Positions 9,960-14,212 of a stretch of 64,000 bases of DNA are shown one piece after another (the stretch's first letter is position 1; the number at the start of each line of letters is the position of its first letter). The position numbers were made by a program, and so were the translations under genes. Source of the DNA: Euzebya tangerina (GTDB taxonomy: Bacteria > Actinomycetota > Nitriliruptoria > Euzebyales > Euzebyaceae); NCBI RefSeq assembly GCF_003074135.1, contig NZ_PPDK01000001.1, forward strand, positions 248,001-312,000, in the 5' to 3' direction. The notes beneath the pieces are model-generated. The model was not told the origin of the DNA. It searched no databases and worked only from the letters and a program-made list of their open reading frames with translations.

Positions 9960-11180
9960 TCAACCGCGACCGACCGCCCGTCGGAAGCGTGCAGCGATGA
10001 CCGCTGCCGGCATGCCATCGTTGATGACATCGGCGGCCCCCAGATCAAGCGCCGTCTCCTCGGTCCGGATGTCGGGCGAGGACAGCGCCACGATCACCGG
10101 CAGCGACGTCGTGGCAGGCCGACTCCGCAGGGTCGTCAGCGCCTCCGAGAGGTCGCGGGCCTCGGCACCCACCACGATCAGGTCCACGGACGACTCGCGA
10201 CAGCGGTCGAGTGCCTCCTCCAGCGTCTCCACCTGCTGGATCGGATGATGGGCCGGCACCGCCTCGGACACGATCGCACCCGTCAGCTGGTCACCGAGGA
10301 CGAGCACACGCATGTTGCCTGAGGTCTTGCGCTTCTCGCGATACATGTGCGCGTCGGCGACATCCATCAACTCGCTGATCGAGGGGTTGACGTGTGGGTC
10401 GAACCGCGCAGCACCGATCGTGACCGCCAACGGGAAGTCCACCAGGTCGTCGATGGACGACGCGGCCGACTCGAGCCGGTCGAAGGCCTCGTCCAGTGAC
10501 TCCGGACGACCCTTCGTGCCGGTCAGCAGCACACAGAACTCATCACCCCCCACGCGGGCCACGATGTCGGAGTCACGCACCGTCCGGGTCAACATGTGAG
10601 CGGTCTCGATGACTGCGCGATCCCCTGCCCGATGACCGAAGCGGTCGTTGATGAACTTCATGTCATCGATGTCGATGAAGACCATCAGCGCTTCGCGGCC
10701 CTCTCGCTGGGCTACTCGGAGCGCCTGCTCCCCGAGCGCCAGGAATGCCCGACGGTTGCCGACACCCGTCAACTGGTCAGCCAGGGCGAGACGCTGCAAC
10801 TCCTTGCGCATCCGGACCCGCTGGCTGACGTCGCGCAGCATCGCCACCTGGGTGCCGTTGCCTGCCTGGGCCACGCGGAGCTCGGCCACTCGAACCCCGC
10901 GAGTGCCGCTGATCAACTCGATCTCGACCGCCTCTCCGGTGGCCAGTGGCAGCCCGAGGTCGGTGCCGATCAGCTCGTCCGGGTCACGGCCCAGCAGGTC
11001 AGCCGCTGCCGCATTGGCGAAGGTCACCATCCCATCGGGATCGATGGCGAGCATTCCGTCCGTGCTGACGCGGACCATCAGCTCGAAGAGCTCAGGTCGC
11101 AGGTCGGGGTCAACCTCGTCAGGCACGGAGGACGGTCGCTCGCTAGTCGTCAAAGAGGGTCTCGATCCGTGTGACCTCAT
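9960..11180 (-). CDS. PAS-GGDEF diguanylate cyclase with C-terminal pseudoreceiver
   Basis: A 406-residue protein. A PAS domain (about 30-110, MLAIDPDGMVTFANAAAADL) precedes a GGDEF domain with an intact GGDEF active site (211-215) and RDSD inhibitory site (202-205), so synthesis of c-di-GMP with product inhibition is expected. The last 120 residues resemble a receiver fold, but the phosphoryl Asp position reads VDLIVVGAEARD and lacks it. It is the last gene of the kai-like set and its ATG overlaps the kaiC stop by 38 bp; GTG 11126 would avoid the overlap. Co-transcription suggests it is an output of, or input to, the Kai proteins. Confidence 0.88.
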   Translation of the reverse strand: MRSHGSRPSLTTSERPSSVPDEVDPDLRPELFELMVRVSTDGMLAIDPDGMVTFANAAAADLLGRDPDELIGTDLGLPLATGEAVEIELISGTRGVRVAELRVAQAGNGTQVAMLRDVSQRVRMRKELQRLALADQLTGVGNRRAFLALGEQALRVAQREGREALMVFIDIDDMKFINDRFGHRAGDRAVIETAHMLTRTVRDSDIVARVGGDEFCVLLTGTKGRPESLDEAFDRLESAASSIDDLVDFPLAVTIGAARFDPHVNPSISELMDVADAHMYREKRKTSGNMRVLVLGDQLTGAIVSEAVPAHHPIQQVETLEEALDRCRESSVDLIVVGAEARDLSEALTTLRSRPATTSLPVIVALSSPDIRTEETALDLGAADVINDGMPAAVIAARFRRAVGRG

Positions 11181-12678
11181 CGGAGGTGATTTGTCGCGGA
11201 TTTCCGGCCAGAATCCCGCTGACGCCGTGGAAGGCCGAACCCAGGTGTATGCCCTCGCCGTTGATGGTGAACTCGCGGATGTCCTTGTCGTGCATCGACC
11301 CGCGCATCTTGAGCACGGTCAGCCCACGTCGCATCTGCCCGGCCAGTTCGACGTAGCGCAGCAGGATGATCGCGTCGGTCAGCGTCGAGATGTGCGCGTC
11401 GGTGACCGACGCGCCGCCCATCAACGACGCCGTCGTGGACGTGAACATCGCGGCTGCCCGCTCCTGCTTCAGGAACGATGTCAGCGCGATCACGAACTCG
11501 CGGAAGGACGCATCGGTCGAGCCCCGCTCCAGTGCCGAGAGGCTGTCGACCGCCACCCGATTCGGCTGGAACTCTGACACCACCCGCCGGACGTGGAGCA
11601 GGTGGTTCTCGAGGGATGCGCTCTCGGGGTAGTCGTTCACCACCAACAGGTCCCCGGACGCCTCGTACTGCTCCAGGTCGAAGCCCCAGCCCACGGCGTT
11701 GCGGAACAGTTGCTCGCGCCCCTCCTCGTAGGCCAACAGCAAGGACCGCTCACCGCGTTCGAGACCGCCGGCGACGAAGTGTGTGGCCATCAGGGTCTTG
11801 CCGGTGCCCGTCGCCCCGCTGAGCAGCACGATCGAGTCGTCGTACAGACCGCCGTGCAGCATCCGGTCGAGCTGGTCCGAGCCGGTGGTGATCCGGTGCC
11901 CGGAACCGTGCGAGGTCAGCTCCATGGCAGCCGACGGGATCATGACGATGCCCTGCTGCGGCACGACCGTGTAGGGGTACTGACCCGTGTGGTGCATCGC
12001 CCCGCGCATCTTCAGGATCTCGATGCTGCGACGACGGTGCTCACCGGTGAGTGCGTTGCGCAAGATCACGACGTTGTCGCTGACGAACTCCTCCACACCC
12101 CACTTCGAGACCGGCCCGTAGTCGAGGTCCCGCTCCGCGGTGAGGACGGCGGTGACGCCGATCGCCTTCAAGGCGGTTGCCAGTCGATACACCTCCTGTC
12201 TGATGGTGTCGGCGCTGACGAAGTGGTTGAACAGCGCACCCAGCGAGTCGATCGACACCCGCTTGGCACCGACCCGGTCAGCCGCATGGCTGATGCGACT
12301 GATCAGACCCTCCAGGTCGAAGGGGCCGGACTCGACCGGTCGCTCGACGTCAGACGGGGCACCGTCGACGAAGGCCCACCTGCCCTCCTGCTCCCACTGC
12401 TGGATCGGAAAGCCGAGACCGCTGGTGTTTCGTCGTATGTCCTCGACGGACTCCTCGAACGTGACGAAGACGCCTGGTATGCCCAGCCGGATCCCTTCTG
12501 CCAGGAACTGGCAGGCGAAGATCGTCTTCCCGGCACCGGCCGTCCCCGAGACGAGGGTCAGCCGGCTGCTCGGAAGGCCGCCGTAGCTGATCACGTCGAG
12601 CCCGGAGATGCCGGTGGGCGTCTTCTCCACCTCATCCTCCGGGTGGAGGAGACCCGCAACGCTCGGTCGTGATCTCAT
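11143..12678 (-). CDS. kaiC: KaiC, two-domain clock-type ATPase/autokinase
   Basis: A 511-residue protein with two RecA-like domains, the layout of cyanobacterial KaiC. CI: Walker A GTAGAGKT at 45-52, catalytic Glu pair 75-76, GVEEFVSDNVVILRN at 194-208. CII: GATGTGKT at 288-295, Glu 318-319, and VTDAHISTLTD, in which Thr426, Ser431 and Thr432 fall at the same residue numbers as the phosphorylation residues of Synechococcus KaiC. The C-terminal A-loop region (GNPRQITSDEV) is present though the tail is short. ATP hydrolysis in CI and a phosphorylation cycle in CII are therefore expected. Start ATG overlaps the kaiB stop as ATGA. Confidence 0.95.
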   Translation of the reverse strand: MRSRPSVAGLLHPEDEVEKTPTGISGLDVISYGGLPSSRLTLVSGTAGAGKTIFACQFLAEGIRLGIPGVFVTFEESVEDIRRNTSGLGFPIQQWEQEGRWAFVDGAPSDVERPVESGPFDLEGLISRISHAADRVGAKRVSIDSLGALFNHFVSADTIRQEVYRLATALKAIGVTAVLTAERDLDYGPVSKWGVEEFVSDNVVILRNALTGEHRRRSIEILKMRGAMHHTGQYPYTVVPQQGIVMIPSAAMELTSHGSGHRITTGSDQLDRMLHGGLYDDSIVLLSGATGTGKTLMATHFVAGGLERGERSLLLAYEEGREQLFRNAVGWGFDLEQYEASGDLLVVNDYPESASLENHLLHVRRVVSEFQPNRVAVDSLSALERGSTDASFREFVIALTSFLKQERAAAMFTSTTASLMGGASVTDAHISTLTDAIILLRYVELAGQMRRGLTVLKMRGSMHDKDIREFTINGEGIHLGSAFHGVSGILAGNPRQITSDEVTRIETLFDD

Positions 12679-12968
12679 GGGAGCTCGCCCGCCTCAGGGT
12701 CGAGCTGCAGGCTGTGCAGCACCACGGCCGTGTCGGACAGGTCGCCGATCAGCCGTCGGGGTGGCAGCGGGTTGTTGCGGAGCAGCGTCGGCGTCGCCAG
12801 GATCAGCGCCTTCTCAGCCAGGTCCGGCCGGTCCAACACGTCGACGACCTCGACCTCGAACGGGATCCCGCGGTGGTCCAGCAGTCGCTGCAGGTTCTGG
12901 AGCGCTCGCTCGGCTCTTGGGCTTCGGCCCGCCACGTAGAGGGTCAAATCGAGCGGTGAGGACGTCAC
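12675..12968 (-). CDS. kaiB: KaiB clock protein
   Basis: A 97-residue KaiB. It shows LTLYVAGRSP at the N terminus, ILATPTL at about 56-62 and RRLIGDLSD at about 71-79, all hallmarks of the thioredoxin-like, fold-switching family that binds the CI ring of phosphorylated KaiC. Both ends overlap neighbours (GTGA with the receiver gene upstream, ATGA with kaiC downstream), so the three are translationally coupled. The C-terminal tail after residue 90 is short and acidic, as in cyanobacterial KaiB. Confidence 0.95.
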   Translation of the reverse strand: MTSSPLDLTLYVAGRSPRAERALQNLQRLLDHRGIPFEVEVVDVLDRPDLAEKALILATPTLLRNNPLPPRRLIGDLSDTAVVLHSLQLDPEAGELP

Positions 12969-13810
12969 GGTGCGCCACCGGTGCTGGCGGCGGCTGCGGG
13001 CGTCGCCTCGTTCACGCCAGCCATCATCTGCCCGCGATAGGCCCGCACCAGGTGGCCCATCACCTCCACCAGCAGCAACCGCCCCTCCGAGGTGATCACC
13101 CCGCCCAACTCGCGGTCGCTGGTGCGGAACTGTCGCCGCAGCACGGCCCCGTGCACCTCCGTGAGCTCCCGCGGGCCGAACCGAAGGTCGGCGAGCGTGG
13201 CGGCGTAGGCCCGGATCTCCTCACGCGGATGCTGCGGCTCCGTGGAGGTCCGCGCGTGGACGACCGCGTCGAGGAGCCGCTCGTGCTCGTCGAGCAGGGC
13301 CAGCACAACACCGGGCACCATCTCCACCAGTGGGTCGGACGGCAGCCCGCGTCCGAGGGACTCGCGATCGCTGAGCCGCCCCAGTTCCCGCGCCACGGCC
13401 GCACCTGCTCGCTGTTCCTCGGCGCTCTCCGGACCACGAGCGGCCCTGGTCTGCCGACGTGCCAGCGCACGTCGCAACGAGCGTCCGAGCGACTCCGCAG
13501 TGATCTCATCCTTCAGGAGGACCTCCTGCGCACCGGCGAGGATCGGCTTGATCTCATCCTCGGGGCTGAGGAACGAGGACATGACGATTACGGCCACACC
13601 CGGGTCCAGGCCCCGGATGTTCTCGATGCTCCGGTTCAGGCGTGAGTCGGGCAGATGTAGATCGAGCAGCACGACGTCGCAGTCGTCGAGGGCAGCCTGC
13701 GCTGCCCCCCAGGTCCGCACCGCGTGGGTGCTCACTCCATCGAGCTGCGAGACATAGGTCTGCACCAGCGCGAGGAAGTCGGGGTCGTCTTCGACTATCA
13801 GGACGCGCAT
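12965..13810 (-). CDS. KaiA-like receiver protein (REC plus KaiA/RsbU-type helical domain)
   Basis: A 281-residue protein. Residues 1-115 form an intact receiver: acidic pair Asp8/Asp9, phosphoryl Asp50 (VVLLDLHLPD), Ser78/79 and Lys100. After a linker, residues about 165-262 form a helical domain with LTEVHGAVLRRQF and LLLVEVMGHLVRAYRG. These two blocks resemble the C-terminal domain of KaiA and the N-terminal domain of RsbU, which share one fold. Receiver-like plus this domain, encoded directly before kaiB and kaiC, is the domain order of KaiA, although here the receiver looks phosphorylatable. The alternative is an RsbU-type partner-switch regulator, but no phosphatase domain is present. 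SD GAAGG lies 5 bp before ATG. Confidence 0.8.
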   Translation of the reverse strand: MRVLIVEDDPDFLALVQTYVSQLDGVSTHAVRTWGAAQAALDDCDVVLLDLHLPDSRLNRSIENIRGLDPGVAVIVMSSFLSPEDEIKPILAGAQEVLLKDEITAESLGRSLRRALARRQTRAARGPESAEEQRAGAAVARELGRLSDRESLGRGLPSDPLVEMVPGVVLALLDEHERLLDAVVHARTSTEPQHPREEIRAYAATLADLRFGPRELTEVHGAVLRRQFRTSDRELGGVITSEGRLLLVEVMGHLVRAYRGQMMAGVNEATPAAAASTGGAP

Positions 13811-13882: not shown

Positions 13883-14212
13883 TTAGGCGCCACCGAGGAG
13901 GCGATTGATCCCCCGGGCCAGCCGAGTTGGCTCGGGCGGGGCCGGAAGGTCGGTCTCTGGATCCTGCTCGTGGACGGCAGCCAGCACCTGGCCGATCTGG
14001 GGGTTGGAGAGGGAGCGGTCACCCACGGTGAGGGTGGGGACGAGCTCATTGCCATCGTTGACGCTGCGGACGAACGCTGCGCCCTGCGAGTCCTCCCAGA
14101 TGTTCACGTCCTCGTAGGGCACCCCGCTGGAGTCGAGCTGCGACTGCAGTCCCGCACAGAAGGGACAGCCGGGGCGCCAGTACAGCGTGATCGGAACGGT
14201 TGTTGTGGGCAT
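13883..14212 (-). CDS. Glutaredoxin-like (mycoredoxin-type) protein
   Basis: A 109-residue thioredoxin-fold protein with the redox motif CPFC in ITLYWRPGCPFCAGLQ and the cis-Pro region ELVPTLTVGD. It reduces disulfides or mixed disulfides in the cytoplasm; in actinobacteria the usual thiol is mycothiol. The C-terminal 25 residues (PAPPEPTRLARGINRLL) extend beyond the core. It lies 72 bp upstream of, and reads into, the KaiA-like gene, so partial co-transcription and redox input are possible. ATG 14212 has GAAGGA ten bases upstream. Confidence 0.85.
   Translation of the reverse strand: MPTTTVPITLYWRPGCPFCAGLQSQLDSSGVPYEDVNIWEDSQGAAFVRSVNDGNELVPTLTVGDRSLSNPQIGQVLAAVHEQDPETDLPAPPEPTRLARGINRLLGGA

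Follow-up and report, generated by a model that had tools for sequence, protein, structure and literature searches.

Does an actinobacterium encode a complete Kai-type timer, and is that timer wired to an output enzyme? This question is raised by a stretch of 64,000 nucleotides from Euzebya tangerina (NZ_PPDK01000001.1, positions 248,001 to 312,000; hereafter the window, numbered from its first letter). Between 13810 and 9960 on its minus strand, the open reading frames encode a receiver protein, followed by KaiB, KaiC and a PAS-GGDEF protein. The original prediction was of an actinobacterium in which genes for a KaiA-type protein, KaiB and two-domain KaiC follow one another as A-B-C, a claim that our analysis supports, and the gene order, leftward direction and motifs that it gave were confirmed from the frames and from domain profiles. 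On balance, we find it likely that a KaiA3-type protein, KaiB, KaiC and the PAS-GGDEF protein form a phosphorylation timer, in which the state of KaiC is predicted to set the synthesis of cyclic di-GMP (c-di-GMP). The features concerned are as follows.

12965..13810, minus strand: KaiA3-type protein, 281 residues, with a receiver domain, a linker and a KaiA-like four-helix bundle
13451..13810, minus strand: receiver domain (PF00072), residues 1-120 of the KaiA3-type protein, with D8, D50 and K100 present
13004..13315, minus strand: KaiA-like four-helix bundle, residues 166-269, from predicted helices and matches of a domain-only model
12675..12968, minus strand: KaiB, 97 residues, start codon within a GTGA overlap
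11143..12678, minus strand: KaiC, 511 residues, two ATPase domains, start within an ATGA overlap
9960..11180, minus strand: PAS-GGDEF-pseudo-receiver protein, a predicted diguanylate cyclase, 406 residues, with an alternative start at GTG 11126
10797..11099, minus strand: Kai-linked PAS module, residues 28-128 of the cyclase, from PAS-only searches
9963..10313, minus strand: degenerate receiver, residues 290-406 of the cyclase, from sequence, with the second receiver of PleD as nearest solved relative

The receiver gene and kaiB overlap by 4 base pairs (bp; GTGA), as do kaiB and kaiC (ATGA). Overlaps of at least 4 bp had been predicted throughout, and this holds for these two junctions, whereas that between kaiC and the cyclase gene depends on the start codon: the first ATG gives a 38-bp overlap and the in-frame GTG at 11126 a 16-bp gap, so this overlap is uncertain. 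The packing is nevertheless very tight, making co-expression of the cyclase with the kai genes likely.

In the first protein, the receiver part matches PF00072 at 41.6 bits (cut-off 30.2), and D8, D50 and K100 are invariant in an alignment of four sequences. Since a Pfam search with the 281-residue protein alone returned only the receiver and one insignificant row, the KaiA-like label required a family profile and a fold comparison. When the whole protein was searched against the genome contigs, 35 loci were found, with the listed matches confined to query residues 1-133, the receiver part; query A4 gave no match in the six genomes behind the loci of these receiver-part matches. Residues 100-270 as a protein query recovered the window protein and one relative, P0002, which as a query yielded a family of 34 proteins, P0002 included. 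The likeness of the bundle to KaiA is weak by sequence alone. The structure model predicts helices at residues 166-188, 196-208, 213-230 and 233-269, and with the domain-only model KaiA occupies ranks 1-6 in Foldseek and likewise in VIA-align. With the full-length model, the VIA-align rows match the receiver, and Foldseek places KaiA (5c5e) at rank 31 (290 columns, root-mean-square deviation 17.7). It is the domain-only model that settles the fold question. Canonical KaiA was ruled out, as the 281-residue protein has no PF07688 match. The predicted KaiA-like receiver protein is thus borne out by profile and fold matches and can be refined: judged by its sequence and modelled fold, it is a divergent KaiA3 type and not a canonical KaiA.

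The kinship with KaiA3 was assessed in 386 genomes of the cyanobacterial phylum, which was entered through a Melainabacteria metagenome-assembled genome. A KaiA-like domain profile found matches in 27 of these genomes, several of them near-identical at the locus, and the strongest frames are about 290-330 residues long. The matched gene adjoins kaiB in 21 of the 27 loci, and kaiB was not seen in the other six. For 19 of the 21 loci longer flanks were examined; kaiB is adjacent in all 19, and kaiC lies inside the stretch in five. The window protein shows 22-28% identity, mostly over residues 2-259, to the 21 KaiA3-type proteins that make up this comparison, a set to which Synechocystis Sll0485 itself does not belong, and it forms the longest branch in the bundle-domain tree. 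According to passages of the report on the KaiA3-KaiB3-KaiC3 set of Synechocystis and relatives (PMC11372060), kaiA3 lies upstream of kaiB3, usually with kaiC3, the set oscillates in vitro, and KaiA3 already occurs outside cyanobacteria, in five named genera. The window shares with that system a receiver with phospho-acceptor Asp, the KaiA-like bundle and the gene order kaiA3-kaiB-kaiC; it differs in its actinobacterial host, in the low identity of its KaiA3-type protein and in its fourth gene. As a side observation, KaiA-like bundles also occur behind PAS or MEDS domains and in long frames of 613-1188 residues (P0012, P0030, P0035; L103-L105) from cyanobacterial-phylum genomes with no KaiB match within the 3.3-kb loci, which suggests a more general KaiA-like module.

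KaiB matches PF07689 at 80.1 bits (cut-off 27), and its nearest solved relative is KaiB 4kso (expectation value, E, 1.5e-17); it scores below the stricter equivalog cut-offs of NF006798 and TIGR02654. KaiC matches PF06745 in two stretches (370 bits, cut-off 26.6) and NF006799 "circadian clock protein KaiC" at 638 bits against a cut-off of 408, and it falls marginally under the cut-off of TIGR02655 circ_KaiC (546.0 versus 546.25). Its alignment to solved KaiC proteins spans the full length, and the best match is PDB 8zn5. Compared with Thermosynechococcus elongatus KaiC, both Walker motifs, both Glu (EE) pairs, the HIST phosphosite and an A-loop-like segment, GILAGNPRQI, are kept; we take HIST to hold the equivalents of phosphosites S431 and T432, and GILAGNPRQI to correspond to the A-loop. 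Over residues 15-277, its identity to T. elongatus KaiC is 51%, while five KaiC proteins encoded next to KaiA3 reach 52-55%. A KaiC tree of 56 rows joins the window KaiC to two other proteins (100/100; 72% identity to P0037) and sets it apart from the cyanobacterial rows, although the bootstrap had yet to settle and the deeper forks are mostly open. A recent transfer of kaiC from cyanobacteria is therefore unsupported. Separately, the KaiC proteins of L074, L059 and L076 have partly or wholly lost the phosphosites (PA, SV and SA for ST); their A-loop region is short or unaligned, and no KaiA-like gene is adjacent.

The fourth protein carries a PAS domain and matches GGDEF (PF00990) at 109.7 bits (cut-off 23.8). 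Its GGDEF motif is intact, with an RxxD I-site five residues ahead (RDSD-IVARV-GGDEF), and from its sequence it is predicted to be a diguanylate cyclase. Its C-terminal end, overlooked in the original prediction, is a degenerate receiver in which the phospho-acceptor Asp, the acidic pair and the Lys are not at their usual places. Among solved structures it is nearest to PleD's second receiver, the adaptor (E 1.1e-4); CikA is missing from the 23 structure-match rows for this domain, an absence that excludes nothing. As in CikA and PleD, the degenerate receiver is fused to a signalling enzyme. In the passages of PMC12632262 that bear on these proteins, the pseudo-receiver of CikA is described as a KaiB binder, and PleD as a combination of a receiver, a pseudo-receiver and a cyclase. 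CikA, however, is a kinase, and KaiB binding by the window domain is conjectural.

For the phosphorylation timer, the observed part comprises the protein families, their order, the predicted KaiA fold, the intact KaiC residues, the intact receiver, the GGDEF domain and the I-site. Its operation would begin with a histidine kinase that phosphorylates the receiver of the KaiA3-type protein and so tunes that protein. In cyanobacteria, KaiA acts on the A-loop of KaiC; here, the target of the KaiA3-type protein would be the KaiC tail, with the effect of increasing KaiC autophosphorylation. KaiB would then bind phosphorylated KaiC and restrain the KaiA3-type protein, whereupon phosphorylation would drop again. 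Through its Kai-linked PAS, its pseudo-receiver or both, the cyclase would attach to the KaiC-KaiB ring, as the CikA pseudo-receiver does to KaiB, and once docked would make c-di-GMP in one phase, with the I-site limiting its level. This docking step is backed by analogy, given the properties of CikA and PleD described above. From known Kai biochemistry, we expect a damped timer or one resembling an hourglass; a 24-h clock is conceivable but unproven. The output could also feed back on the timer, since c-di-GMP alters the period and phase of the Synechococcus elongatus clock, as stated in part of PMC13001216.

Of 66 genomes of the class, nine gave a KaiC match (E <= 1e-60), as did nine of 396 sampled from the phylum (E <= 1e-100), and the actinobacterial set totals 16 kaiC loci in 13 genomes, with the surrounding genes called by a crude codon-usage caller. 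Two of the 66 class genomes and three of the 396 phylum genomes yielded a KaiA-like domain (at most 11 candidates per genome being scored in the latter). Within the genus, G002 holds two more A-B-C clusters, both without a cyclase, and G001 and G003 gave no KaiC and no KaiA-like match in searches that did not extend to KaiB. A single origin of the three A-B-C clusters was considered and is unsupported by kaiC, as one G002 kaiC joins kaiC genes of another family (99/92) in the KaiC tree, where other forks are open. In G364, which belongs to another family, two contig ends are of note (L073:7256-7804 and L067:6870-9379): one has kaiB, kaiC and the N-terminus of a phytochrome, and the other has the remainder of a phytochrome kinase gene and, after it, a receiver-KaiA-like gene. 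These ends may be the two halves of one kaiB-kaiC-bphP-kaiA operon with red-light input, an arrangement in which the signal to such a receiver would come from a light-sensing kinase.

Among the alternatives, the one that survives best, although we regard it as unlikely, is a KaiB-KaiC stress or nutrient switch without a cycle, in which the KaiA3-type protein relays a kinase signal and a two-state KaiC gates the cyclase. Such a switch is consistent with the complete receiver and with the kinase genes near its relatives, namely the phytochrome-type histidine kinase that precedes the receiver-KaiA-like gene at the G364 contig end and, by gene calls, a histidine kinase gene divergent from one of the KaiA-like genes of G002. 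Likewise, 2 of the 4 genomes of the genus have KaiC together with the KaiA-like gene, a patchiness that fits an accessory regulator. However, KaiC retains both phosphosites and the A-loop-like segment, and the in vitro oscillation of the cyanobacterial KaiA3 set (PMC11372060, in part) also argues for a cycle.

A second alternative is that the cyclase is a bystander, sharing the operon but not the mechanism. Besides the tight gene packing, two comparisons speak against this. The first concerns neighbouring genes: the gene immediately flanking a kai gene or cluster has GGDEF in 7 of the 16 actinobacterial kaiC loci (the window, L055, L056, L058, L061, L075 and L076), where 0.21 would be expected from the genomes' own GGDEF counts at an assumed 950 genes per Mb, in an estimate that includes neighbours in divergent or convergent orientation, takes no account of contig ends and was devised after the pattern had been noticed. 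With three same-genus orthologues merged the figure is 5 of 14 against 0.20, and with the window also removed it is 4 of 13 against 0.18. The L055 and L058 genes, of EAL-GAF-GGDEF type, were identified by comparison with L056, the caller having erred there. At L074 the second gene carries GGDEF, and with one gene between it was scored as having no immediate GGDEF neighbour; at the other kaiC loci the neighbours are kinases, receivers or unrelated genes.

Several of these loci are of interest in their own right. L061 (3676-4403; G048) has two KaiB genes in tandem between kaiC and a PAS-GGDEF-EAL gene. At L054, L055, L056 and L058, from one genus of another family, a divergent EAL-GAF-GGDEF gene lies upstream of kaiC in three of the four; at L054, L056 and L058, kaiC is followed by kaiB and then by a single-receiver protein with a kinase-like protein facing it. 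L055 was counted as a kaiC locus only, because no KaiB match was found within its 12.5-kb stretch.

The second comparison concerns the PAS domain, whose closest counterparts lie in kai loci from other families and phyla. We used the window PAS as a query against 20 kai loci and 37 control loci (38 GG[DE]EF control frames), the controls being drawn from G000, G364 and G267; the Sphingobium, Rhizobium and Aquisphaera records supplied no controls and were checked by searches of all plasmids. All six top matches fall in kai loci, no more than about 1.7 kb from a kai gene, and they represent three phyla: a Sphingobium PAS-kinase-receiver-receiver protein directly after kaiC (E 1.4e-16); a G364 PAS-GGDEF-EAL protein one gene from kaiC; an Aquisphaera PAS-kinase-receiver protein directly before kaiB; a G267 PAS-GGDEF-EAL protein convergent with kaiC; a G042 PAS-kinase directly after kaiC; and an unannotated frame of Rhizobium 11515TR about 1.7 kb beyond the kaiC match. 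A Cereibacter sphaeroides kinase after kaiB ranks seventh (2e-5), and the best control gave 1.1e-4. Against 72,556 plasmid records, the window PAS found Sphingobium (2e-12) and Aquisphaera (5e-6) as the best of 29 matching records, with Rhizobium lower (4e-4). The Sphingobium PAS matched 28 plasmid records, with Rhizobium the best non-self match (3e-11) and a haloarchaeon next (3e-6); Aquisphaera was not found at E 1e-3. Sphingobium, Aquisphaera and Rhizobium are the only plasmid records with a KaiC of at least 48% identity among the 40 of 285 matches listed.

Other observations weigh on the opposite side. A profile of the six PAS members gives one control, L134, an E of 4.5e-12; the Kai-linked PAS occurs in none of the 19 cyanobacterial kaiA3 loci; and L075 and L061 have PAS domains of a different kind. 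The GGDEF domain of the cyclase has no kai bias and is nearer to ordinary control cyclases than to kai-linked ones, its 12 best matches all being controls. Neither G002 cluster has a cyclase. A gene order unique to this genome would have counted against the original prediction: the A-B-C order recurs twice in G002, but A-B-C followed directly by a cyclase is found only here among the 16 kaiC loci. Taking both sides together, we consider the bystander explanation improbable. The sequence comparisons suggest that the Kai-linked PAS is possibly a Kai-docking module. It is a tentative proposal that actinobacterial, planctomycete and alphaproteobacterial KaiB-KaiC rings are read out through a docking PAS, fused lineage by lineage to a diguanylate cyclase, a cyclase-phosphodiesterase or a histidine kinase, and that a complete KaiA3-KaiB-KaiC timer would thereby be hard-wired here to c-di-GMP, a kind of output not known from cyanobacteria.

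The last alternative, in which the bundle is a stressosome-type adaptor (kin of RsbU-N or RsbR-N) with a partner other than KaiC and a merely historical site before kaiB, is very improbable given the KaiA matches heading both fold lists and the bundle family's place beside kaiB in 21 of 27 cyanobacterial-phylum loci.

The window sits on a 3.4-Mb contig of a 4.78-Mb genome in 12 contigs, and the host genome has three WhiB matches, whereas WhiB matches only 1 of 14 control genomes, that of Corynebacterium glutamicum; together these indicate that the genome is actinobacterial and that the locus does not come from some small stray contig. A genome-wide search found one KaiB-family match and one full-length KaiC match. 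One further gene lies 72 bp upstream of the cluster.

13883..14212, minus strand: mycoredoxin-like gene, of uncertain operon membership

Its TIGR02200 score of 85.5 bits is below the cut-off of 89.5. By gene calls, the two G002 clusters have no same-strand gene next upstream. A scan of the window locus, covering one promoter type only, found neither promoter nor terminator.

With the canonical KaiABC of S. elongatus, the window shares KaiB, the KaiC phosphosites and Glu pairs, the KaiA-type C-terminal fold and the gene order. It differs in having a true receiver for the pseudo-receiver and no KaiA Pfam match; its KaiC is slightly nearer to KaiC proteins beside KaiA3 than to T. elongatus KaiC; and its genome has no second KaiB-family (SasA-like) match, which is a weak test. 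The KaiB-KaiC hourglass of Rhodobacter (Cereibacter) sphaeroides also combines KaiC and KaiB, with an adjacent sensory kinase gene; its KaiC is placed elsewhere in the KaiC tree than the window protein and, according to part of PMC10076222, has a C-terminal extension and works without KaiA. That no actinobacterial version had been described, as originally stated, was too strong, since a "Propionibacteriaceae bacterium" is named, in part of PMC8113500, among bacteria with KaiA and a syntenic cyanobacterial-type kaiABC operon. The titles and abstract openings of the papers that our searches listed, together with passages of PMC11372060 and PMC10173096, a scope outside which most subscription papers lie, mention no actinobacterial KaiA3 cluster and no kai-encoded cyclase. 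Within that literature, KaiA3-KaiB3-KaiC3 is known (PMC11372060), and an actinobacterial form wired to c-di-GMP looks new.

If the proposed timer holds, an actinobacterium would carry a three-protein timer and its output enzyme in one operon. Two questions would then become testable with four small genes: whether timers of the KaiA3 type operate in bacteria of this kind, and by what route Kai proteins act on physiology outside cyanobacteria. The Kai-linked PAS, if confirmed, would allow unknown outputs of kaiBC systems to be read from sequence.

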